IMG/VR virus record: IMGVR_UViG_3300047201_000052
Location: 1 to 23,291 of that record
Length of the DNA: 23,291 nucleotides
DNA from: a virus
Reading direction: 5' to 3' (one strand)
Both the position numbers and the translations under genes were made by a program. The notes beneath the pieces were generated by a model. The model searched no databases. It saw only the letters and a list, made by a program, of their open reading frames with translations, and was not told where the DNA came from. The stretch's first letter is position 1. The number at the start of each line of letters is the position of its first letter. Shown here piece by piece: positions 7,889 to 23,252 of this stretch.

Positions 7889-8683
7889 TTATATAAGGGC
7901 TATTGACTGTTTTTTTAATATTCGTTTGAGTTCCTCAATACGATTATTGATTTCATCTAATCTAACTGGTGTAAAATTATCATACCCTTTGAATATTGAT
8001 TTATAAACAGAAGAATTAGCCATCTGTTTTATAGTTAATAAAATACTTAATTCTTTAACTAAACTTGGAGTAGAGGCATATCCATAACTGTATGTAACTT
8101 TTATCATATCTTCTCCGTCATATGGAAAATTGTCTATCCATCTTATTCTGCCTAATTCTAAATCTTCTGAATTAGCAATATAATCTTCTCCTAATCCTGC
8201 ACTTAGAGTTTCCCAATCGGGGACAGTTGTTTGAACTGAAAGATTTCTTTCAACAGAAGTCAAAGCAATAACAGGATAATGCTTTAAAAAAAAGACTTTT
8301 TGAGAAGCTTCCTTATTAAGATATTCGGTTCCAGATGAACTACCAAATGTTCTTCCTGTTTCTGTATCAATTAAACTATCAGAAGAACTAATCATTTGTT
8401 GGATTATACTATCAGGTAAGTCTGCATAATCATAATCTATTGTAATCGTTCCTGCAGCAGTTAAACCACTTAAACTTAATGTTCCATCATCTAAATCTGA
8501 TATATAATTATTTGGAGTTGTAACTAATACCCCGCCTGTATAAAGTGCAATAGAATTACTAATTAAATTATCATGATCTGTTTCATTCCAATCACTTCCT
8601 GTTCCAACTATCTCACTTCTTATTTTTGTATAAGCATCTTTTCCAAGATGTTTCCAAACTTCACTCGATGACGCATATGACAT
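7889..8683 (-). CDS. Head-tail connector (adaptor) protein
   Basis: The protein has 264 residues and a GAGGT site nine bases before the ATG. The N-terminal 100 residues include a strand-rich insert (GTLSLSGLTAAGTITIDYDY). The rest follows the pattern of gp6/gp15-type connectors that bind under the portal: a helix around DSIIQQMISSSDSLIDTETGR, then 'HYPVIALTSVERN', a strand-rich part ending in VKVTYSYGYA-like IKVTYSYGYASTPSLVKEL, and C-terminal helices (LLTIKQMANSS, NNRIEELKRILKKQ). The first 23 bases overlap the end of the HNH gene upstream. The role is well supported by the 'TYSYGYA..P..VKEL' signature and by its place after the capsid gene. Confidence 0.7.
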   Translation of the reverse strand: MSYASSSEVWKHLGKDAYTKIRSEIVGTGSDWNETDHDNLISNSIALYTGGVLVTTPNNYISDLDDGTLSLSGLTAAGTITIDYDYADLPDSIIQQMISSSDSLIDTETGRTFGSSSGTEYLNKEASQKVFFLKHYPVIALTSVERNLSVQTTVPDWETLSAGLGEDYIANSEDLELGRIRWIDNFPYDGEDMIKVTYSYGYASTPSLVKELSILLTIKQMANSSVYKSIFKGYDNFTPVRLDEINNRIEELKRILKKQSIALI

Positions 8684-9206
8684 TGTAATTATACCTCTCT
8701 TTTAATAATGATTGAAAAAATGAAGTCCACTGTTTTCTATTAAAATTAGTTTTCATATGGCAACTTATACATAAAGTAATACAATTTTCTTTTATAGTAT
8801 TTAATTTATTGTAATCAATATGATGAACTTGTAATCTATTTTCACTTCCACAAATCACACAAGCATGATCTCTTAATTTTATTGCTTCTTTAAATATTTC
8901 AGTAAAATTCTTTCCCCATTTTTCAAACGATTTTCCACCTTTCCAATTAGGATGTTTTTCTAATTTTTTAAAAGAACCAGAATGAAACATAGATTTTCCT
9001 TTATTCCAAGCAGGAAATCCTAAACGATATTTATTTTCTTTCATCATTAAAAATTCTTTTCCTTTATTCCAAGGAATATATCCTTTTTGAAAAGCAGTTT
9101 TTGGAAGATGATTTTTAACTCCATTAGAAATCTTTTCTTTGATTGTTTCACTAAGTATAATTCCTTTTCTACTTGGTGGTTTTCCATAACCTATTTTGTG
9201 TGTCAT
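8661..9206 (-). CDS. HNH homing endonuclease with NUMOD3-type repeats
   Basis: The 181-residue protein should cut DNA at a specific site and promote its own spread. Residues about 8-95 hold NUMOD3-like DNA-binding motifs (GKPPSRKGIILSETIKEKIS, then PWNKGK, AWNKGK and NWKGGKS). Residues about 125-165 form the HNH/zinc unit: CVIC, VHHID, an Asn in the ENCITL segment and CISCH. The gene lies between the capsid protein and the connector. It overlaps the connector start by 23 bases, so it is tightly packed against a structural gene. A weak AGGAAA precedes the ATG. It is probably a freestanding homing gene, since no intron sequence is visible around it. Confidence 0.9.
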   Translation of the reverse strand: MTHKIGYGKPPSRKGIILSETIKEKISNGVKNHLPKTAFQKGYIPWNKGKEFLMMKENKYRLGFPAWNKGKSMFHSGSFKKLEKHPNWKGGKSFEKWGKNFTEIFKEAIKLRDHACVICGSENRLQVHHIDYNKLNTIKENCITLCISCHMKTNFNRKQWTSFFQSLLKERYNYNVICVIE

Positions 9207-10263: not shown

Positions 10264-10695
10264 TTACTTTACAAAGAGACCCTGTTTAATAGCCATTTCG
10301 CCCAAACTCAATTTCTTCTGAGGTTCTTGTTTTTCAACTAAACCTCTTTCGTTTTCGAGTTCTTTTAATCCGTCTTTTAGAGCTTCTTTAATTGCTTTCA
10401 CAATTTCAGAAACATCTATTTGTTTTGTCTCAATTGTTTTCACAATTTCAACATTTTCGGATTTTTGGCTTTTTGTTTCTTCTTCCATCGTCTCTCCTTT
10501 TCCTCCATTTAAATTTAATTCATCATCTATATCTTCTGTTTCACCTGTAAATCTTGTTTTAAGACTTGCATTTGAAATAGATTTTATAAGTGAAAATGAA
10601 CTAAAAGACGCATGTGCATCTGGATATGCTGGAATTCCAACTGCGGAAGTTTCATATAATCTTAATTTTCCCCAAACTTTAATTTTTCTTTTCAT
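10264..10695 (-). CDS. Prohead protease C-terminal part fused to scaffold-like region
   Basis: The 143-residue protein starts at an ATG that overlaps the stop of the N-terminal protease part as ATGA, with GAGGT six bases before it. Residues 8-29 (KLRLYETSAVGIPAYPDAHA) match the strand that closes prohead proteases, usually written E-x-S-x-V-x-x-P-A-x-P-D-A. The Glu at residue 15 lies where the family often has an acidic residue near the active site. Residues 55-85 are acidic and Ser/Lys-rich, and about 88-125 are a long helix (DVSEIVKAIKEALKDGLKELENE), typical of delta/scaffold domains. It therefore looks like the end of the protease joined to the scaffold that the capsid gene lacks. A separate scaffold with a chance motif is the less likely alternative. 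Confidence 0.7.
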   Translation of the reverse strand: MKRKIKVWGKLRLYETSAVGIPAYPDAHASFSSFSLIKSISNASLKTRFTGETEDIDDELNLNGGKGETMEEETKSQKSENVEIVKTIETKQIDVSEIVKAIKEALKDGLKELENERGLVEKQEPQKKLSLGEMAIKQGLFVK

Positions 10696-11282
10696 TCTTC
10701 TACCTCTATGAATTTTGGTTCTTCTATTGGTTTTCCGCCTATACTAAATCCAATAGGCATTCCTTCATTAATATATTGCCAAAATAATTCTTGATCAGGA
10801 TGTGCTTTATTTAATCGAACTACTGCAACTAAATGGTCTCCTTCTTGCCTTGCGTCTATCCAAGAGCCCATCATTTGTTTCCAAGAATAAACATTTCTTT
10901 CTCCTGTTTGTTCGTGAAATCCATGGTCTGGAAAAAATCCTATTGTTCCAGATTTAAATTGCATAACCATATCATCAATAGCTTCTTGGCTCATCATTTC
11001 ATTATCTCTATCTTCTTTTAATCCACTTACTGTAACTTCAATAAATCTTTGTTTTGATTTTTCTACTGCATTTGCAGATTTTTGAATATCTACTTCTTCT
11101 TCCCAAAATCTTGTAATAGGTGCTTTAACAAAGAAAACTTCTTCATCTTTCTTATATTGTGCTTGTGCAATTGCCCAGATTTCATCATCTGTATAAGGTT
11201 TTTTAGTTCTTGGATTAGTTTTTCCTTTAAGATTTCTTACAACTGCATCGTGAATTTCATCAAGTTTTTGCGGAATTTTAAC
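10692..11282 (-). CDS. Prohead protease N-terminal part, no canonical start codon
   Basis: The frame is open for 196 codons after a TAG at 11285-11283 and reads as real protein throughout (PQKLDEIHDAVVRNL, DDEIWAIAQAQYKKD, RFIEVTVSGLKEDRDNE). Active-site candidates of the herpes-assemblin-like prohead protease family are His120 in PDHGF and Ser180 in GFSIGG. The frame contains no ATG, GTG or TTG before the ATG-ATG at 10997. Starting there would delete 95 residues, including the first core strand. The HNH gene ends at 11278, inside the beginning of this frame. Possible starts are the ATT at 11276, two bases after the HNH TAA with a weak AGGT upstream, or a +1 shift at GGT-TAA. The third catalytic residue probably lies in the next gene. 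Confidence 0.75.
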   Translation of the reverse strand, partial: VKIPQKLDEIHDAVVRNLKGKTNPRTKKPYTDDEIWAIAQAQYKKDEEVFFVKAPITRFWEEEVDIQKSANAVEKSKQRFIEVTVSGLKEDRDNEMMSQEAIDDMVMQFKSGTIGFFPDHGFHEQTGERNVYSWKQMMGSWIDARQEGDHLVAVVRLNKAHPDQELFWQYINEGMPIGFSIGGKPIEEPKFIEVEE

Positions 11283-11481
11283 CTACCAATAGTGGTTTCT
11301 CATGATGAATTGCCCAATGACAATTATAACAAACCACCATCAAATTATTTAATTGATTATTAAATCTATTTCTATCTATGTGATGAACGCATAATCTTTC
11401 TATTTCTTCTCCACAAATCAATTTAAGGGTTCTTCCACAATTCTCACATTCTTTATTAATCTCTCTAAATTGCTTTGGCAT
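11278..11481 (-). CDS. Small HNH endonuclease abutting the protease
   Basis: The 67-residue product is little more than a bare HNH unit: C12-x2-C15 (ECENCG), VHHID at 32-36, Asn in NNLMVV, and C51-x2-C54-H55 (CYNCH), with four Cys placed to hold one zinc ion. It has no DNA-recognition extension, unlike the second HNH gene in this window. A TATA box lies 20-29 bases before its ATG and there is no ribosome-binding site, so the message is probably leaderless. The stop TAA lies inside the start of the protease frame, which has lost any normal start codon. The first codons, Met-Pro-Lys, could even derive from the original protease start. Freestanding homing gene, intron-encoded endonuclease and bypass-type element are all conceivable. 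Confidence 0.85.
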   Translation of the reverse strand: MPKQFREINKECENCGRTLKLICGEEIERLCVHHIDRNRFNNQLNNLMVVCYNCHWAIHHEKPLLVG

Positions 11482-11500: not shown

Positions 11501-11510
11501 TATTTAAATT
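11501..11510 (-). promoter_or_regulatory. TATA box for the HNH-protease-capsid unit
   Basis: The minus strand reads AATTTAAATA at 20-29 bases before the ATG at 11481, in the 52-base spacer after the portal stop. The spacing is that of an archaeal leaderless promoter. Together with the T-tract at 9242-9266 it would frame one transcript for HNH, protease, scaffold and capsid. Confidence 0.55.
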
Positions 11511-11533
11511 ACTTATGTTTTTTTTATTTAAAA

Positions 11534-12978: not shown

Positions 12979-13227
12979 ATGGTAAAATTAAAAGTAGGGA
13001 AGTATACTTACGATTATCCAAATGAAGTAATGGATACCGTTAAAATAAATAAACAAATAAAAGAAGAATTTTCTAAATTTTGCAGAGAAAGAAAAATTAA
13101 TAAATGTAAATTAATAGAAGAATTTTATAAAACTATTTTAATAAGATTTAAAGAAGGATCACTCAACTCCTCTATGGGTTACATTACATTAAATATATTT
13201 TTAGATAAATTTAAAAAACATAATTAG
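12979..13227 (+). CDS. Probable ribbon-helix-helix transcription regulator
   Basis: The 82-residue protein is the only plus-strand gene seen. Residues about 18-55 follow the ribbon-helix-helix pattern: a short strand (DTVKINKQI), helix 1 (KEEFSKFCRERK), a turn (INKCK) and helix 2 (LIEEFYKTILIRF). Such proteins bind DNA as dimers through the strand, usually at repeated sites. Its own promoter faces the portal promoter, with a tandem repeat between them, so it may repress both itself and the late structural genes. It converges on the terminase gene, with eight bases between the stops. The first 17 and last 25 residues are outside the recognised core and have no clear match. The fold is inferred from pattern only. 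Confidence 0.6.
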   Translation: MVKLKVGKYTYDYPNEVMDTVKINKQIKEEFSKFCRERKINKCKLIEEFYKTILIRFKEGSLNSSMGYITLNIFLDKFKKHN

Positions 13228-14657: not shown

Positions 14658-14886
14658 ATTTTAATTTGTTTGCTTCCATAAATTTAGATATAATAAATCT
14701 TATTTTATTCTCTCTTGGGCGATAGACATTCCACCAAGAAAAATAACATTCTTTGCATTTAAAAAAATCATTGCATAACATAGTGCATTTTAAAACTTTT
14801 CCAATAATCTCTTTTGTAATTGGATTAATGATATCATACTCTAAATCGGTATCTCCATATCTGCCAAAACATTTTTTAACTCTCAT
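14611..14886 (-). CDS. Small Cys-containing protein upstream of the terminase
   Basis: I do not recognise this protein. The start chosen is the ATG at 14886, which gives 91 residues and an 11-base overlap with the glycosyltransferase stop; a start at 14916 would lie deep inside that gene. It has C-x3-C and C-x2-C pairs (LKCTMLCNDFFKCKECYF) that could hold a metal ion, an aromatic run (SWWNVYRP) and a basic, helical C-terminus (FENEKFKRYSKKNK). Its 3' end overlaps the terminase by 41-47 bases, so their translation is coupled. The position directly before the large terminase is that of a small terminase subunit, but no helix-turn-helix is evident. A zinc-binding accessory to packaging is an equal possibility. 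Confidence 0.55.
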   Translation of the reverse strand: MRVKKCFGRYGDTDLEYDIINPITKEIIGKVLKCTMLCNDFFKCKECYFSWWNVYRPRENKIRFIISKFMEANKLKFENEKFKRYSKKNKI

Positions 14887-16105
14887 TTTCAAACAATTGT
14901 ATATATCGAGATGCAATTATATCCCAATCATATTTTAAAGAGAATTTTCTTGCTCTTTCAGATCTTTCTTTTTTTCCTTCTTTCCATTCAAGATAAAGTT
15001 TTTCAAGAATTTCAGCAATTTTTATATCATTTGGAATTGCATTTTCTACTCCATTTGGGCCTATTTCAGTTACTTTTCTTCCATATTCATCTGTTAAAAC
15101 AGGAATAAATAAGTCTTGTTCACTTACTATTTCAACAGCAGAAGAATAATTTGTCATCATCAAAGGAACTCCTGCGCTCTGGCATTCTAATCCCGGCAAT
15201 CCAAAACCTTCTCCGCCCACAGCATAACAAAAAACATCCATTAAATTATAAATCTCATTCATGTTTTCTGGTTGGATATTTTGCCTTGTAATTACATCTA
15301 AGTTCGGTTTTGTGGTTACTATTTTAGGGGACGGTTTTTCTAATTCTGGATCTATTTCTGCTTCAAATTTAGTGATTAAGCAAGGAAGATCCCACCCCCC
15401 ATTTGTTTCTGTATGCAGTAATAAAACAACATCATTTTTTACTTTTGCAAATTTTGAAAATCCTTTTATAAGATTAGGCAACATCTTTCTTCTTTGATTT
15501 TTTCCAATAAATCCAACAACAAATTTATTATTGAATTTATATTTTAACCTTATTTCTTCTCTATTTGCTAAAGGATAATAAACTTTTGTATCTACCCCCA
15601 TGGGGATATATCTTAAATTTTTAACATTATGTTTTGTATAAAGAATTTCTCCATTTTTTGCGCCAGCAATATTTATGTCTGGAAAATCAAGAATTCTACT
15701 CCATAACATATGCTCCCAACTTTCCGTATCAACTAAAGAAATGCAAAACCACCTTCCTTTCCATCCTCTTTTTTTGGCTTCACAAATATTTAAATTAGGA
15801 GAGAAATCTATAAATCCTGCTGTTATTCCAATATCTGCCATAGTCAATAAAACATCTGGTTGATATTTTAAAAGATAAGGAAGAACTGTATCAAATCCAT
15901 ATTCTGCTCTATGAACTGGGAGCATCCAATAACCTTCTTTTGTTTCGTGAGGTCTGTCTCTATTTTGCCATCCAACATGATAAAATTTCCAATCAGGTTT
16001 AAGTTTCTTCCATCTTGTTAATAGATTATCCCAAATTTGTCCATACCCGGTAGATGTTTTTGGATCATCTCCGTAAGTGAGCACACAGAATTTTTTATTT
16101 TCCAT
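14876..16105 (-). CDS. GT4-type glycosyltransferase
   Basis: The 409-residue protein has the two-domain GT-B layout of family 4. The N-terminal domain contains STGYGQIWDNLL and PYLLKYQPDVLLTMADIG. The C-terminal domain begins about residue 190 (KFVVGFIGKNQRRKMLPNLIKGF) and carries the nucleotide-sugar motif EGFGLPGLE with both Glu of the EX7E pattern, followed by SAGVPLMMT. It should transfer a sugar from an activated donor to a growing glycan or a protein. No membrane segment or signal is seen. It overlaps its neighbours on both sides (11 bases each) and has GAGGT seven bases before the ATG. Donor and acceptor cannot be told from sequence. Confidence 0.85.
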   Translation of the reverse strand: MENKKFCVLTYGDDPKTSTGYGQIWDNLLTRWKKLKPDWKFYHVGWQNRDRPHETKEGYWMLPVHRAEYGFDTVLPYLLKYQPDVLLTMADIGITAGFIDFSPNLNICEAKKRGWKGRWFCISLVDTESWEHMLWSRILDFPDINIAGAKNGEILYTKHNVKNLRYIPMGVDTKVYYPLANREEIRLKYKFNNKFVVGFIGKNQRRKMLPNLIKGFSKFAKVKNDVVLLLHTETNGGWDLPCLITKFEAEIDPELEKPSPKIVTTKPNLDVITRQNIQPENMNEIYNLMDVFCYAVGGEGFGLPGLECQSAGVPLMMTNYSSAVEIVSEQDLFIPVLTDEYGRKVTEIGPNGVENAIPNDIKIAEILEKLYLEWKEGKKERSERARKFSLKYDWDIIASRYIQLFENES

Positions 16106-17165
16106 TTTTTAAAACCTCAATTAATTTTTTCGCTGAATTTTCCCAGCTCCATTTCTTTCTTATATCTTCTGAATTGATTAATGCTTTTTCTTTTAATTCT
16201 TTTTTATGCTCAAAAGCATATCTCATTTGTTTTTTTAAACTTTCTTTATCTATTAAAGGTTGTAAATTGCCTTCAGCAAAAAATCTTTTATCTGCCTGTT
16301 CCATCTTATCTGCATCAATCCATAAGACACTATCTTTTCCTCTGCAAAAATCCATATGCCCGGAATTATTATCTTTAGTTATTATTAAAGGAAGCCCTGA
16401 TGCCATAGCATTTATTGCTGTTAATCCAAAACCTTCCCCTCGTGTAGGCATTACAAAACAATCTGATTTCTGATAAAATTCAGTTAATTCTTTTTCTGGA
16501 ACATATGCCTCATTAATTAAGATATTTGGATTAGTATGCCCAAGAAGTTCATAAATAGCATTTGCATAAAATCCTATATCAATTTTCTGCCAGAATGTGC
16601 TAATCTTTAACATTAATTTAACTTTTTCATCTTTAAATTCTTCATCAAAAGCTTTAATTAAAACATCTGTTCCTTTTCTGTCATCTATTTTTCCTGTCCA
16701 AGAATTTACTGATAAAAATAAATAATCTTCATTATCTTCAAATTTTTTAGGATAATACATTTCTGGATTTACCCCAAAAGGAACTATCTCTATTTTTTGC
16801 AAAACTCCATTAAATCTAAATAAGTTTTTAGTAGCTTGGCTTGGAACAAGAACTAAATCTGCTGTATTAAGAATTTCTGCCCATCCTTGATGAAGTTTTG
16901 TTCCTTCGTGCAAAAAATACCCTATTATTTTTCCATATCCATCTCTCCAAAATTGAGGATAATCAGCAAAGATAGTGCAATCTACATCTTTAACATCAAT
17001 AGCATTATTTAGAAAGTGTAATCCTTCATTAAAATCATATCCGCTATTCCAAATATCTGCACACTGAATTTTAATTTCTTTTTTTACGAGGGCTTTAACT
17101 ATCTCTCTGGATGCTGTTGCAATTCCTGTCGGATTAAACACGTTTCCTTTCCATAATACTTTCAT
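16095..17165 (-). CDS. GT4-type glycosyltransferase with altered EX7E
   Basis: The 356-residue GT-B protein starts MKVLWKGNVFNPTGIATASREIVKAL, the glycine/serine-rich acceptor-side loop common in family 4. The donor domain starts near residue 145 (YLFLSVNSWTGKIDDRKGTDVLIKAF) and has TRGEGFGLTAINAMASGLPLI. The second Glu of the EX7E motif is replaced by Asn, so the donor-binding site may be altered while the rest of the motif is intact. The ATG overlaps the preceding stop by four bases; the end overlaps the next glycosyltransferase by 11. It is clearly related in layout to that neighbour but not a recent copy. The substrate is unknown. Confidence 0.85.
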   Translation of the reverse strand: MKVLWKGNVFNPTGIATASREIVKALVKKEIKIQCADIWNSGYDFNEGLHFLNNAIDVKDVDCTIFADYPQFWRDGYGKIIGYFLHEGTKLHQGWAEILNTADLVLVPSQATKNLFRFNGVLQKIEIVPFGVNPEMYYPKKFEDNEDYLFLSVNSWTGKIDDRKGTDVLIKAFDEEFKDEKVKLMLKISTFWQKIDIGFYANAIYELLGHTNPNILINEAYVPEKELTEFYQKSDCFVMPTRGEGFGLTAINAMASGLPLIITKDNNSGHMDFCRGKDSVLWIDADKMEQADKRFFAEGNLQPLIDKESLKKQMRYAFEHKKELKEKALINSEDIRKKWSWENSAKKLIEVLKNGK

Positions 17166-17812
17166 TTTATTTTTTTAAAATCTTCTTTTGTATTTACATT
17201 CATATAATATCCTTTTAAAATATACCAATCTCTTTCTTCTACATAATTAAGGGCATCAGTTAATTCTCCAACTGGATTTTTCTTAATTGCCTTAAATAAC
17301 TCCTTAGTTGCCATATATATACCTAACCCTATTAAAGATTTTAAATTAGAAACATCTTTTGGCTTTTCTATAAATTGTTTAGTATAATCTAATCCAAAAT
17401 TTTTCTTTATTTCTTCTTTATTTTCAACTTTTTGCATGCCTACAAGCAAATCAGTTTTCATTCCCTTAAAAGCAGATTTCATAGGGTATAAATCTCCTTT
17501 AAATATTATGTCTCCTAAAATTATAAGCATATCATCACCACTAACTAAATCTTCGGCAAGAGAGATAGCATGAGCACTCCCTTTTTTTTCTTTTTGAGTT
17601 ACATATTCTAATGGCATTCCATTCCAATTATTTCCAAGAACATTTTCAATATCTTTTTCATTTTGGATAATTATCACTTTTCTTATTCCTAATTCAAACA
17701 TATTCAATAAAGGATATTCAATAAGATATTTATTTTTAATCTTGACTAATCCTTTCGTTCCCATTCCAAGTCTTGTTCCCATACCTGCGCAGGGCAGAAC
17801 ACCTACCATCAT
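17162..17812 (-). CDS. Sugar-phosphate nucleotidyltransferase
   Basis: The 216-residue enzyme should join a sugar 1-phosphate to a nucleotide, making the activated donor for the neighbouring transferases. The signature is CAGMGTRLGMGTKGLVKI at residues 8-25, with Lys20 and Lys24 at catalytic positions. KKGSAHAISLA and the metal-binding Asp101 in LIILGDIIF follow. The C-terminal part (FIEKPKDVSNLKSLIGLGIYM, GYYMNVNTKEDFKK) is the usual sugar-binding half. At 216 residues it is a minimal form without an added acyltransferase or dimer domain. It overlaps both neighbours by four bases. Whether it makes CDP-, dTDP- or UDP-sugars cannot be read from the sequence; the next enzyme's likeness to CDP-paratose epimerase hints at CDP. 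Confidence 0.85.
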   Translation of the reverse strand: MMVGVLPCAGMGTRLGMGTKGLVKIKNKYLIEYPLLNMFELGIRKVIIIQNEKDIENVLGNNWNGMPLEYVTQKEKKGSAHAISLAEDLVSGDDMLIILGDIIFKGDLYPMKSAFKGMKTDLLVGMQKVENKEEIKKNFGLDYTKQFIEKPKDVSNLKSLIGLGIYMATKELFKAIKKNPVGELTDALNYVEERDWYILKGYYMNVNTKEDFKKIK

Positions 17813-18834
17813 TTGAATAATTCCTGATTAGATGTTATCCAATCACAAAGTTTAATTAAACCTTTATCAATTGATATTTCTGGTTTCCAATTAAAATCTT
17901 TTTTGGCTTTCTGATAATCACATACAAAATACCAAAGATCACCTCTTCTTTTTGGATTAATAGTTATTAATGGTTGTTTATTATTATTAATAAGTTTTAA
18001 TTTCCATAAGCATTCTCCAAGAGAGATAGAATTTTCAATTCCTCCACCAATATTATAAATCCCTGTTGGACATCCTGCTTTAAACCAGCATTCAAATGCT
18101 CTTGCGGCATCTTCTGCATAAAGAATATCTCTTACTTGCTTATCAGTTCCGAAAATTGTTATTGGCTTTTCCATAATTGTTCTTATCGCAAAGTTAGCTA
18201 CCCATCCATGATCCATTCCACCAAATTGCCTTTCTCCATACATTCCTGTTAATCTAAAACTTGCAGTTTTCATTCCATACATTTCAGCATAACTTTGGGT
18301 GTATAACTCTGTTGCATATTTAGAAATATGTAAAGGAGTTAATTCTCCTTTTAGAACAGGTTGATTTTCATTAATTTCTTCAGGCACATTTACAAATCTT
18401 GTTTCGGTTTCTCCTAATAGTTCATTTATATCATTCCCATAAACATGAATAGAAGAACAATTAATAAAAGGACAATTTAATTTCTTTGCAATTTCAAGCA
18501 TATTTATACAAGACAGTATATTATTATCTGCATCATATTTTGGATCTTCTATTGCAATAGTCATAGCGGGTTGTGCGGCGCAGTGAATTATTAAATCTAT
18601 TCCTGAAAAATCTTCTGCGCATACATCTCTGCAATCCCATTTATGAAATTTAACTGATAATTTATCCAAGAAATCTAAATTATGCTTTCTTGAAGCCAGA
18701 ATATCAAAATCTGTTCTTTTTAATTCTCTGTCATTAAGATTATCAATTCCTTCTATTTTCCAACCTTGTTTTTTAAAATATTCAGCAACATGAGTTCCAA
18801 GAAAACCCGCCACACCCGAAATTAAAACTTTCAT
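17809..18834 (-). CDS. Nucleotide-sugar epimerase/dehydratase, CDP-paratose epimerase-like
   Basis: The 341-residue extended short-chain dehydrogenase has a Rossmann start GVAGFLG (G7, G10, G13) and 'IDNL' at the end of the second strand. NCSSIHVYG supplies the active-site Ser. The block MYGERQFGGMDHGWVANF plus KPITIFGTDKQVRDILYAEDAARAF closely resembles CDP-paratose 2-epimerases. The catalytic Tyr of the Y-x3-K motif is missing: residues 167-172 read PLHISK, with Leu168 where Tyr is expected and Lys172 present. The enzyme may use another proton donor, act on a different substrate or be inactive. A GAGGTG site precedes the ATG, which shares one base with the previous stop. Confidence 0.8.
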   Translation of the reverse strand: MKVLISGVAGFLGTHVAEYFKKQGWKIEGIDNLNDRELKRTDFDILASRKHNLDFLDKLSVKFHKWDCRDVCAEDFSGIDLIIHCAAQPAMTIAIEDPKYDADNNILSCINMLEIAKKLNCPFINCSSIHVYGNDINELLGETETRFVNVPEEINENQPVLKGELTPLHISKYATELYTQSYAEMYGMKTASFRLTGMYGERQFGGMDHGWVANFAIRTIMEKPITIFGTDKQVRDILYAEDAARAFECWFKAGCPTGIYNIGGGIENSISLGECLWKLKLINNNKQPLITINPKRRGDLWYFVCDYQKAKKDFNWKPEISIDKGLIKLCDWITSNQELFK

Positions 18835-20096
18835 TAGAAATCACACCTCTTTAATTGTTCTTCTATTTGATATTGATATTGTTTATAAGCTTCTAAATCT
18901 TTTAATTTATTTGAAATATCTACTAAAGTTTGATTATCTATATCACATATTTTGAAAGGACTAAATAAAAAATTAAAATCCTCATAATTGATTTTTTCAG
19001 GTATTCTTCCCTGTTCTTTTAAATCATTCCACATTTTTGTTCCGGGAAAAGGCGTAGTTATACAAACCCCAATTCCGCCCGTTATTCTGTTATTTTTGAT
19101 AAATTCTTTGGTTAATCTTATATCTTCAATAGTTTCATCTGGACCACCTATCATAAATGTTCCATTTGGAAATATTCCTATTTCATTACAAAGTTTTATA
19201 CTTTCTTCATTTTGAAGAATTGTTGTTCTTTTGTTATAAATATCAAGCATTCTTTGGCTTCCACTTTCCCAACCAAAAGTTATCTGTACACATCCCGCCT
19301 CTTTAGCCAAAATTAAAAGATTTTTGTCAAGATTATCAACTCTTGAATTTCCACCCCATCTTATTCTTATTTTTCTTTCTATTATTAATTCACAGATTTT
19401 CTTTACCCTATCTTTCATTACAAAAAAATTATCTTCAATAAAAAATAGACTATCAATTTGATGATGTTTAATCAGATATTCAATTTCTTCAATAACTTTT
19501 TCAGCAGAATTATATCTAAATTTTAATCCTTTAAAAGAATTATGGCAAAATGTGCAAGAATAAGGGCATCCTCTACTTGTTAGAATATTTCCTGTTCTTG
19601 AATTTTCTGGAATACATCTTAATATTTTTGGCTTTACACTAACATAGAATTCCATATTCAATAAATCATAGGCAGGTAAAGGCAATTCATCTAAATTCTC
19701 TATTGGAATTCCTTTGATTATTCCTGTTAAATTTTCATCAATTATCTTTTTTAAGATTATTTCTCCTTCTCCTATTACAACTGCATCTGCATGCTTAATT
19801 GCTTCTTCTGGCAGTATAGATGCATGAATTCCACCAATTACTACTTTATATCCTTTTTTTCTGGCTAAATCTGCACATAAATATGCTGTGTTAATTGTTA
19901 AAGTTGTTCCTGTAATTCCTACTAAATCTGGCTTGAATTCATCTATTTGGGAAAGATTATCTCCACTCGCCATATCCACTATTTTAACTTGATGATTAAA
20001 TTGCTTAATATAAGAAGCCAGTAATGCAAGAGAAATAGGTGGAGCTCCACTATAAGAAAACTTATTTGAAGGATTTATTAATGCAAGTTTGCTCAT
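18834..20096 (-). CDS. B12-binding-type radical SAM protein
   Basis: The 420-residue protein has an N-terminal cobalamin-binding-like Rossmann domain (residues 1-130: PPISLALLASYIKQFNHQVKIVD, PDLVGITGTT, KVVIGGIHASILPEEAI, VIGEGE). The His of the base-off motif D-x-H-x-x-G is absent. The radical SAM core follows with C177-x3-C181-x2-C184 in SRGCPYSCTFCHNSF, which should hold the 4Fe-4S cluster. Further core elements are FFIEDNFFV, GGNSRVDNL and FMIGGPDETIEDI. Family members methylate or rearrange unactivated carbons in lipids, peptides and sugars. It sits among glycosylation genes, with GGAGGT six bases before its ATG and a four-base overlap upstream, so a sugar or glycan carrier is a plausible substrate, though unproven. 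Confidence 0.85.
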   Translation of the reverse strand: MSKLALINPSNKFSYSGAPPISLALLASYIKQFNHQVKIVDMASGDNLSQIDEFKPDLVGITGTTLTINTAYLCADLARKKGYKVVIGGIHASILPEEAIKHADAVVIGEGEIILKKIIDENLTGIIKGIPIENLDELPLPAYDLLNMEFYVSVKPKILRCIPENSRTGNILTSRGCPYSCTFCHNSFKGLKFRYNSAEKVIEEIEYLIKHHQIDSLFFIEDNFFVMKDRVKKICELIIERKIRIRWGGNSRVDNLDKNLLILAKEAGCVQITFGWESGSQRMLDIYNKRTTILQNEESIKLCNEIGIFPNGTFMIGGPDETIEDIRLTKEFIKNNRITGGIGVCITTPFPGTKMWNDLKEQGRIPEKINYEDFNFLFSPFKICDIDNQTLVDISNKLKDLEAYKQYQYQIEEQLKRCDF

Positions 20097-21157
20097 TTCA
20101 TAACCTCCAAAACTTTTTCTGAAAATTTATCCCAAGTAAGATTTTTCTTTACCCATTGTTTTTTTCTTCCTGTTCTGTGATAATCTAAATAAAACATATC
20201 TTTTGCTGATATTGGATGTTCAAAATAAGTAACAATATGATCAATATAATCTTCTATTTTGTCACAAACAAAAGCTAAACCATTTTCTTCTAAAATAGAA
20301 CTTGCAGTCATTTCTTTGCTTACTATTATTATGCATCCAGCAGATATAGCTTCAAATGGACTTAACCAACTTCCCTGAGATTTAACAGGCATTAAAACTA
20401 TATCAGTTAAATTATAGATATTTCTTACTTCTTCTCTATTAATTACTCCTGTAAAAATAACATTTCCTATATTTCCATCTTGCATAATCTGATTTCTTAA
20501 TTCTTCTGCATAAGGATTAATTTCTTTTCCTACTAATAATAATTTAGCATTAGGAATTTTCTTTAAGACTTCTTTAAATATTTCATAAGTGAATTTTGTA
20601 TTCTTTGTTGGATGAATAAATCCTACTTGTGTAATAACAAAACTATCTTTCAAATCATACTTATCAGTTGGCTCAATCTTTTCAGAAAAGAAATCATAAT
20701 CAACTCCATAGTTTATTATCTCACTATCCATTCCATATAATTCTTTAAATCTCTTTTGGTTAAATTCATCTGCAACAATTACTTTATCTATAAAATTATT
20801 GACTATTTCTTTTTCCTTGTCTGGAACATATCCTAAATCCAAGAAAGATTGTGGTTCATTACAAAGCCAGATATTTTTGTTTTTTATTCCATAACTCATT
20901 AATTCACATGGATGATTATTGTAAAATATTACATCAAAATCTATATGAATTTGCTTTAATACATTTACCATTTCTGCGAAATCTACACAAAATAATAATC
21001 TTGTATCAATTAAATCTTTTCTCACATCTTCTTTCATCTGTGTAGTTAGAATAGTTGTCTGAATATGATGGTCTGAACAATAATTGCAGAATTTTACAAT
21101 TACTCTTTCTGCTCCGCCATAAATCCAAAACGAAGGATGGCAAATCAAGACTTTCAT
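20093..21157 (-). CDS. GT4-type glycosyltransferase with altered EX7E
   Basis: The 354-residue GT-B protein starts MKVLICHPSFWIYGGAERVIVKF, the GGAE loop of many family 4 enzymes. A hinge near residue 165 leads to the donor domain (SFVITQVGFIHPTKNTKFTYEIF, AKLLLVGKEI, VIFTGVINREEVRNIY). The donor motif reads SQGSWLSPFEAISAGCIIIV: the second Glu of EX7E is kept but the first is Gln. Such changes occur in active family 4 enzymes but can alter donor use. GAGGT lies ten bases before the ATG, and four-base overlaps join it to both neighbours. No membrane anchor is seen; membrane association through basic surface patches is common in the family. Confidence 0.85.
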   Translation of the reverse strand: MKVLICHPSFWIYGGAERVIVKFCNYCSDHHIQTTILTTQMKEDVRKDLIDTRLLFCVDFAEMVNVLKQIHIDFDVIFYNNHPCELMSYGIKNKNIWLCNEPQSFLDLGYVPDKEKEIVNNFIDKVIVADEFNQKRFKELYGMDSEIINYGVDYDFFSEKIEPTDKYDLKDSFVITQVGFIHPTKNTKFTYEIFKEVLKKIPNAKLLLVGKEINPYAEELRNQIMQDGNIGNVIFTGVINREEVRNIYNLTDIVLMPVKSQGSWLSPFEAISAGCIIIVSKEMTASSILEENGLAFVCDKIEDYIDHIVTYFEHPISAKDMFYLDYHRTGRKKQWVKKNLTWDKFSEKVLEVMK

Positions 21158-22197
21158 TCTAAAGAATACCTCTTTTTAATTAATAATCCTTGCCCTTTAA
21201 CATAAGGCATTACCCATCTTTTTAAAATTCTCTCATTAGTTAATTGATAGACTGCATTTCCTTTATTTTCCAGTTTCCCTTCATCAAATTTTTTATAGAT
21301 ATTTTTATATTTTTGTTTGTTCCAGAAATGAATATAATGCCCTCTTACAATAAATTTACAAGAAAGTCTATAAATTTTTCCAGATTCTATTTCATTCAGA
21401 TAATCTTTTAGATAACCATTAATCTTTATTTCCATTAAATTTTTAGGGTAGGGGGTTTTTCCCTTCTTTTCTCTTCTTTTATTTTTCTTTTCTATATCTG
21501 AAAGATTAATCGGGAAATATCTTATATCATCAGAATTAATAAAATTCTGAAATGCTTCTACGAAATTCCAAATTTCTGAATATTTTTTGTTTATTTTATC
21601 ATTCTTTTTATCATCAAAGATTTCTAATTTATTCTTTCCAATTCCATGATTATTATTAATAGAAATTCTAAAAATGTTTTTTGTGATAGGAAAATATTTT
21701 TCAATTCTTTCTAAATCTTTTGAAAGATATTCTTTTTCTTCTTCAGTATTATCTTCAACAATATTTATAGGTTTATCAAAATGGTAGCGTTCTATAATAT
21801 TTTTGGAAATAACCGCATTCTCATCATAATATAATGCTTCAATTCTTAATGCAGATAAATAAGGTTCATTTATATCCGTAGTCCAATTATTTTTTATAGC
21901 TTGTAAACTCTTTTTTTGTTGTTCGAGTTCTTCTTTATCATATCCATGTAAAATAGAAATCCCAAATATATATCCACTCTTATATGGGAAACAGCATTCA
22001 ATAAATACTTTATGAAAAGGCAAATTAAAAAAAGTTTTGTTATCACATTTAGTATTCTTTAATAAAAAAGTTATTGCATCATTTAATTCAAAAAAATTAT
22101 AATCTTCATAATTTAATCTCCATATTTCTCTCATTCTTAAAGTTTTCAATCTTCCTTTAATTCCTAATTCTTCATAAATTTCTTCTGGAGTTTTCAT
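21154..22197 (-). CDS. Unrecognised protein within the glycan module
   Basis: I do not recognise a function. The start chosen is the ATG at 22197 (MKTPEEIYEEL), which overlaps the previous stop as ATGA and has GAGAGGTG upstream; a start at 22212 is less likely. The product has 347 residues, is rich in Lys, Asn and Ile, and has no membrane segment. The middle is highly charged (NTEEEKEYLSKDLERIEKYF; KKNKRREKKGKTPYPKNL). The C-terminal 100 residues contain SCKFIVRGHYIHFWNKQKYKN and later KRWVMPYVKGQG. This recalls a 'VRGHWR ... W-x-x-P-x-x-(K/R)G' motif found in many uncharacterised phage and actinobacterial proteins. The link is from memory. Its tight coupling to radical SAM and glycosyltransferase genes suggests co-expression, not necessarily shared function. 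Confidence 0.6.
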   Translation of the reverse strand: MKTPEEIYEELGIKGRLKTLRMREIWRLNYEDYNFFELNDAITFLLKNTKCDNKTFFNLPFHKVFIECCFPYKSGYIFGISILHGYDKEELEQQKKSLQAIKNNWTTDINEPYLSALRIEALYYDENAVISKNIIERYHFDKPINIVEDNTEEEKEYLSKDLERIEKYFPITKNIFRISINNNHGIGKNKLEIFDDKKNDKINKKYSEIWNFVEAFQNFINSDDIRYFPINLSDIEKKNKRREKKGKTPYPKNLMEIKINGYLKDYLNEIESGKIYRLSCKFIVRGHYIHFWNKQKYKNIYKKFDEGKLENKGNAVYQLTNERILKRWVMPYVKGQGLLIKKRYSLE

Positions 22198-23252
22198 TTG
22201 TATAAAATGCACCTCTCACAAGATTTACACATTTTATTTGATTGAATAACATCTATCATAGTTTTATATTTTTCTCCTTTCCAAATAGTTTTAAAATCTT
22301 CTTTAAGAATATTGCCTAAACTTGTATCTCTTTGCCATTTTCTGTCATTCTGCTCATTAAGAGAGCAACAAGGAACAACTGTGCCATCTACAAAAATAAA
22401 GGGTTGGTTCCAAACTGTGCAGGTATTCATAGGAGATTTATTTCCTGTGTTTATATTGAAAGAAACAGGAATTCCAAGAGTTCTTCCTTTTTCCATTATT
22501 TCTCTTTTTTCTTCATCTGTTATGTCTATGAACCAATCCTCTATTTCTGGGTAGTTATGAAGTAATTTTGTAATTTGAACATTTATAACATCTACTTTAA
22601 GAGAATGTATCATTTCTAAATATTTTATTATTTCATGCTTGTTATGTTTTCCTATAATATAATGAAACCAAAGTTCAGGAAAATAAGAATTTCTTTCTTT
22701 TTTCATCTTGTCTAAAAGCTTGATATTTTTAATCACTTTTTCATAAGTTGCATTTACTCTAATTTTTTCATAAGTTTCTTTTGTTGCCGCATCCATAGAA
22801 ACATAAACCTTGTCTAATCCAATATCTAACCAGTGTTTTATATCTTCTGGCTTTAGCCAATTAAATGTATCAAAGATTTCTATAAAAATTCCTTCTCTAT
22901 TTTCCTTTAAATAAGACAGCATTTTTTTATAATCTATATTTGAATAACTCTCTCCTATTCCTGTTAATCCTATTTCTCTTAAATTTGGAAATTGCTTAAT
23001 TATTTTTTTAAAATTCTCAAAACTCATTAACTGACTTTTTTCTTTCCAGTGAGTATGCTCGCACATAATACATTTAAGAGGGCAGGTTGTTGATACTTCT
23101 ACTTCAATTTGTTCTGGATAAGGCCTGTTTGTTTGGATAAAATCAATTATCTGTTTATTTCTTGCACAATAGATAGTATGAAACCAGATATAATTAAAAC
23201 ACCATTTTAACCCTTTCTTATTAAAATTAGGATTAAGAATAAAAGTTTGCAT
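22194..23252 (-). CDS. Radical SAM protein with SPASM-type C-terminus
   Basis: From the ATG at 23252 the protein has 352 residues. C57-x3-C61-x2-C64 (STTCPLKCIMCEH) binds the radical SAM cluster, and LTGIGESYSN is the SAM-contacting strand. The C-terminus has added cysteines (NTCTVW, VVPCCSL and C342-x2-C345-x2-C348 in MCKSCERC) typical of SPASM auxiliary iron-sulfur clusters, with GNILKEDFKTIWKGEKY as the usual spacer. SPASM enzymes modify peptides or proteins and, in some groups, sugars and aminoglycosides. Codons above 23252 remain open in the same frame to the window edge, so the true start may lie outside and this entry may be short at its N-terminus. It overlaps the next gene by four bases and is the first visible gene of the operon. 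Confidence 0.85.
   Translation of the reverse strand: MQTFILNPNFNKKGLKWCFNYIWFHTIYCARNKQIIDFIQTNRPYPEQIEVEVSTTCPLKCIMCEHTHWKEKSQLMSFENFKKIIKQFPNLREIGLTGIGESYSNIDYKKMLSYLKENREGIFIEIFDTFNWLKPEDIKHWLDIGLDKVYVSMDAATKETYEKIRVNATYEKVIKNIKLLDKMKKERNSYFPELWFHYIIGKHNKHEIIKYLEMIHSLKVDVINVQITKLLHNYPEIEDWFIDITDEEKREIMEKGRTLGIPVSFNINTGNKSPMNTCTVWNQPFIFVDGTVVPCCSLNEQNDRKWQRDTSLGNILKEDFKTIWKGEKYKTMIDVIQSNKMCKSCERCILYK

Follow-up and report, generated by a model that had tools for sequence, protein, structure and literature searches.

The window, a viral stretch of 23,291 nucleotides (IMG/VR record IMGVR_UViG_3300047201_000052), carries a gene for an HNH endonuclease at the very start of its prohead protease gene, and the protease has ATT at the position where its relatives have ATG. 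Comparison with relatives shows the HNH gene to be an insertion at the protease start, and its mobility by homing, including movement across virus groups, is strongly indicated. In what is probably the correct explanation, the free-standing HNH gene took over the promoter and start of the protease gene and supplies it with a Shine-Dalgarno (SD)-like site and an AUU codon, at which initiation would be coupled to termination of HNH translation. That AUU is the codon used for the protease, both in the window and in a distant relative (L019), is something we infer from sequence only. The features involved are collected in Table 1.

Table 1. Features at the junction of the HNH and protease genes
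Feature	Position	Strand	Basis
Archaeal-type promoter: BRE-like ATAAGTAA, then TATA box TTTAAATA (11508-11501)	11501..11516	-	Sequence, spacing
HNH endonuclease gene, 67 aa, short form of free-standing homing-type HNH	11278..11481	-	Pfam, PHROG, homology to L019
SD-like AGGT, 4 nt before ATT	11281..11284	-	Anti-SD pairing energy
ATT at conserved ATG start position of protease; proposed AUU start codon	11274..11276	-	Alignment with HNH-less relatives
Prohead protease, first part, 194 codons from ATT	10692..11276	-	58-78% identity to relatives
Second ORF: end of protease domain and scaffold-like tail	10264..10695	-	Weak, sub-cut-off Pfam S78 match; PHROG head maturation protease

The protease and its neighborhood

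On the minus strand, the portal gene (12895-11534) is followed by a gap with a TATA-type promoter, the HNH gene, the protease frame, the second protease ORF, and the gene for the major capsid protein (10262-9267). The first protease ORF on its own gave no Pfam match, and a search of the PDB with its sequence profile gave none either. It is assigned as a prohead serine protease through a conserved histidine and serine (H118 and S178, invariant in protease alignment A7), homology to the prohead protease of Halorubrum tailed virus 28 (HRTV-28; tblastn E 3e-18, 30% identity over 79% of the query), and its predicted fold. The latter matches prohead proteases in a viral structure library, and its best PDB match, a weak one, is the T4 gp21 protease (E 6e-3). 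The protease of the window departs from its HRTV-28 homolog in that its start is displaced and the end of its domain is encoded by a separate ORF. This end (LYETSAVG-PAYPDAH) is likewise separate in L001, L002, and L004, where the two ORFs overlap, as in the window, by ATGA or a few bases. Since the split is common to the whole group, a two-piece protease or coupled pair is ancestral here.

In a phage collection the protease matched only two records, both of a haloarchaeal tailed virus. These exclusively haloarchaeal matches, together with the leaderless-type promoters described below, suggest an archaeal host, and the window probably derives from an archaeal tailed virus. No provirus or host was found in the genome contigs searched with alignments of the protease and the major capsid protein, and the archaeal markers MCM and PCNA were absent from the records.

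The lost start codon

Open from 11282, the protease frame runs to a stop at 10692 and begins V-K-I-P-Q-K-L-D-E-I-H-D. As the initial annotation had claimed, the first ATG lies at 10997 and the 95 codons before it contain no ATG, GTG, or TTG. The annotation had also described this stretch as family-like, and alignment of the whole protein to its relatives bears out that it is real coding sequence. The frame is indeed open from 11282, as it had stated, but the gene homologous to those of relatives begins at the ATT (11276) and not at 11282; upstream of the ATT only V-K is in frame. The HNH stop, TAA at 11280-11278, does lie within the first codons of the protease frame.

The ancestral start could be located to the base by alignment with relatives, which were gathered in a search of viral contigs that gave 4 and then 22 loci, near-identical contigs being merged. 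In 14 distinct relatives without an HNH gene at this place the protease starts with ATG, and the N-terminus reads MP-x-KLDEIH in all of these except L018, whose N-terminus is different. Their ATG aligns exactly with the window's ATT, one base past the UAA of the HNH gene, and not with the ATG at 10997.

It is conceivable that the protease is not made at all, or is truncated and made from the ATG at 10997, as in a damaged genome or after a recent insertion that is not yet tolerated. AUU is a poor start codon, the SD of the window is weak, and 10997 is a real in-frame ATG. The codons between the ATT and this ATG are nevertheless still under purifying selection: changes polarized to the window branch comprise 13 synonymous and 13 nonsynonymous substitutions against a neutral ratio of about 1:3 (P = 0.005). 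In the predicted structure, a start at 10997 would cost 93 residues, among them the two helices at the N-terminus and the first long strands, and so would give a different protein. The structural genes adjoining the protease are intact in the window, and the same arrangement is kept in L019, which belongs to a distant clade. Loss or truncation of the protease is thus unlikely, if the least unlikely of the alternatives to initiation at AUU.

The HNH gene and its promoter

The HNH ORF narrowly exceeds the cut-off of Pfam PF01844 (22.3 bits; cut-off 21.4) and matches PHROG HNH families. It contains the motif HHID...N...CYNCHWAIH with zinc-binding CxxC pairs, which is of the beta-beta-alpha metal type, and is 63% identical to the HNH of L019. 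Used alone as a query it had no match until a two-member alignment was used. The window form lacks about 75 residues that are found in the L019 and L047 forms, and its first CxxC is seemingly joined directly to the HNH core.

The TATA box TTTAAATA is spaced from the HNH ATG just as at the portal gene, its first base lying 27 nt upstream, in agreement with the earlier assignment of the upstream promoter to the HNH gene. This implies that the HNH transcript would be leaderless. In related contigs, TATA-type boxes cluster at -33 to -28 before ATGs with little SD, which by sequence is the pattern of archaeal leaderless transcripts, and a similar promoter element precedes the protease ATG itself in L004 and L017.

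The first codons of the HNH gene (MPKQFREI; also MPKKFREI) resemble the protease start MPKKLDEI, a resemblance of 5' ends that falls in the top 1-2% of the 216 ORF starts in these contigs. It points to an HNH gene that may have its beginning within a copied protease start, which places the insertion point only approximately. The same likeness lends some appeal to one of the three mechanisms offered in the initial annotation, removal or bypass of the HNH stretch so that Met-Pro-Lys is joined to Ile-Pro-Gln. The leaderless AUG-Pro-Lys would then be joined through a mini-intron, an archaeal BHB intron, or a byp-like element. The HNH gene does begin MPK and the protease does continue IPQ. However, the 5' exon would be only about 9 nt long, covariance models gave no Rfam match to a group I or other self-splicing intron in the window, and the RNA fold is not unusual (z -0.87). 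The insert is about 200 nt long here and about 420 nt in L019, and there is no conserved pair of take-off and landing sites, the codon before ATT being AAA in the window, L026, and L047 and ACA in L019. Removal or bypass is thus highly improbable.

ATT accompanies the HNH gene in other contigs

The exact junction pattern of the window has no second copy in the viral contigs. The ATT, by comparison, recurs. L019, a distant clade of the same virus group (57% identity), has ATT at the same codon, preceded by AGGAGGGGTGAACA, and no other start; its homologous HNH is longer (146 aa, MPKKFREINKECLNCG...) and runs into the protease start. L047 comes from a second virus group, whose capsid protein is different, and its homologous HNH, the 5' end of which is cut by the contig end, is followed by GGAGGTAAATGAAAATTCCCCAG, with ATT at the aligned position and an ATG two codons upstream. 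The homologous HNHs that L019 and L047 carry at this site show 50-63% identity. The L047 contig ends (L047:1) inside the HNH at a stretch resembling the protease start; the assembly may have broken there at duplicated sequence.

A fourth contig, L026, has ATT and AGGAGACTAAA with no HNH gene, and an in-frame ATG 30 nt upstream serves as a normal start. Its ATT is possibly the trace of a lost element. A scar of HNH loss is no more than a possibility, and not a clean one: alignment to L008 and L009 gives an 8-nt insert, AGGAGACT, just before the ATT, together with a new leader ATG. At L026:3968-4010, ATT stands without an HNH gene beside an insert that creates an SD, with the new ATG in frame upstream. 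Matches of L029, L034, and L043 to a degenerate N-terminus pattern were set aside as chance.

ATT is found in all three HNH-bearing contigs and in one of the 16 without HNH (Fisher P 0.004). In a tree, the window, L019, and L026 fall in three separate clades, each among ATG neighbors. Only the window and L019 combine ATT at the conserved position with the lack of a standard in-frame start, and so depend on it; L026 and L047 have their upstream ATG. In three clades and one further virus group, ATT thus stands where an essential viral gene should start, and no contig in which this HNH was found lacks it. This recurrence also bears on the simplest objection, that ATT is really ATG and reflects a sequencing or assembly error, as might be suspected of a single base in one contig. 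The ATT is present in two further HNH-bearing contigs with other sample ids, making an error very unlikely.

A probable footprint of homing

At this fixed site the HNH is sporadic, being present in the window, L019, and L047 and missing from the 14 distinct relatives and from L051, a near-identical counterpart of L047. L047 and L051, an occupied and empty pair from a virus group other than that of the window, are 98.9% identical over 3,984 bp. L051 has no HNH at this place and starts its protease with ATG. Nine of the 12 differences between the two protease genes fall in the first 25 bases, with three in the other 992 (P about 1e-13), and those in the first 25 bases include the change of ATG to ATT. 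From L051 to L047 the altered stretch goes from M-P-A-K-L-D to I-P-Q-K-L-D, and IPQKLD is also what the window reads. The pattern is what homing with co-conversion from a divergent, window-like donor would leave. Together these comparisons suggest that ATT is a rarely used start codon that is probably carried by the mobile gene.

Translation of the protease

The arrangement can be accounted for by a free-standing HNH homing gene that inserted itself precisely where the prohead protease gene begins. The HNH would now be served by a TATA promoter and a leaderless ATG of the kind that the protease uses in relatives, while the right end of the element would reach exactly to the old start codon and leave an SD-like sequence and ATT in place of ATG. 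The protease would then be the second cistron of the HNH mRNA, with SD-guided initiation at AUU coupled to HNH termination (UAA-A-AUU), and the expected N-terminus would be (Met)-PQKLDEIHDAVVR. Reinitiation at this AUU was another of the mechanisms in the initial annotation, and of the three it fits best.

Leaderless mRNAs appear to require AUG (PMC5622118), and distal cistrons in archaea are expected to need an SD (PMC7531240), so the protease, as a distal cistron after the insertion, should need one. An SD-like sequence is present at every ATT locus, and most relatives with ATG have none. The sequences are AGGU in the window, AGGAG in L026, GGAGGU in L047, and GGGGUGA in L019, with anti-SD pairing energies of -2.5, -5.3, -8.7, and -9.0 kcal/mol, respectively. 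Ranked against random sites, L019 and L047 are in the best 0.3% and L026 is at 4%, while the window is weak at 16%. Coupled initiation would suit the position of the HNH stop, which precedes ATT by 1 nt in the window and follows it closely in L019 and L047. A published survey of prokaryotic genes recorded a switch from AUG to AUU in 1 of 61,358 ancestral AUG starts (PMC5622118), a change so rare that its recurrence here needs a shared cause. Counting against the use of AUU, archaeal aIF1 disfavors non-AUG starts (PMC6237735).

Alternatively, ribosomes might slip near the HNH stop to produce an HNH-protease fusion. A +1 shift at GGU-UAA in the window, the remaining proposal of the initial annotation, would reach the protease frame, and the HNH frame of L019 has A AAA AAT, the classical -1 slippery pattern, before its stop in the overlap. 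The heptamer (L019:4004-4020) is probably just the conserved KKL codons of the protease, though, and RNA folds at the junctions are not unusual. Moreover, the shift needed would be +1 in the window and L047 and -1 in L019, so that no slippage rule is shared. We regard a frameshift as quite unlikely, a little more so than a lost or truncated protease.

Initiation at AUU would also admit a further, speculative step, to which we give a rather low probability. The right end of the element may carry a ready-made SD and AUU, such that insertion destroys the endonuclease target (through ATG to ATT and recoding of neighboring codons) and ties protease synthesis to HNH translation, making the element hard to lose. 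If true, this right end would work as a device of addiction and immunity made out of a start codon, and AUU initiation would have an example in an archaeal system. If AUU is used at all, it shows that a leaderless start can be captured by a selfish gene while the host virus stays viable, and these loci offer a natural test of non-AUG initiation in archaea. As a practical matter, gene callers will truncate or miss such proteases.

Relation to known systems

In E. coli, infC starts with AUU behind an upstream SD, and the AUU serves autoregulation by IF3. The window is similar in that an otherwise normal gene has AUU at its start position, preceded by a site resembling an SD. It differs in that this putative AUU start goes with a mobile gene, in viruses that are probably archaeal.

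Free-standing endonuclease genes of T4 harness upstream promoters and overlap their neighbors (PMC2988022). The element described here resembles these T4-like mob and seg genes as an intron-less nuclease gene beside a conserved viral gene, with an upstream promoter, sporadic distribution, and flank co-conversion (PMC2988022). Unlike them, it occupies the very start codon of an essential gene and takes what appears to be a leaderless start, and the displaced gene is left with AUU and an SD-like site. In T4 gene 60, next to gene 39 and MobA, a 50-nt insert is bypassed, the insertion being compensated in translation (PMC5009743). Both cases involve a homing endonuclease inserted in an essential viral gene with translational compensation, but here the compensation is apparently a new internal start and not gene splitting with ribosome bypass. 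A search of largely open-access literature returned no report of an HNH gene replacing the start of a viral protease, nor of AUU starts in archaea.

Other genes in the window

A second HNH gene of an unrelated type (8661-9206, minus strand) separates the capsid gene from the head gene that follows. It overlaps the start of that head gene by 23 nt; the ATG of the head gene (8683) and a GAGGT site are retained. Adjoining the terminase is a run of glycosyltransferase-like, nucleotide-sugar, and radical-SAM-like genes (14876-23252, minus strand), and in L002 and L004, too, the terminase is preceded by a gene of glycosyltransferase-like type. Between the terminase and portal genes, a small ribbon-helix-helix-like ORF lies on the opposite strand (12979-13227, plus strand), with counterparts at the same place in L002, L004, L019, and L026.
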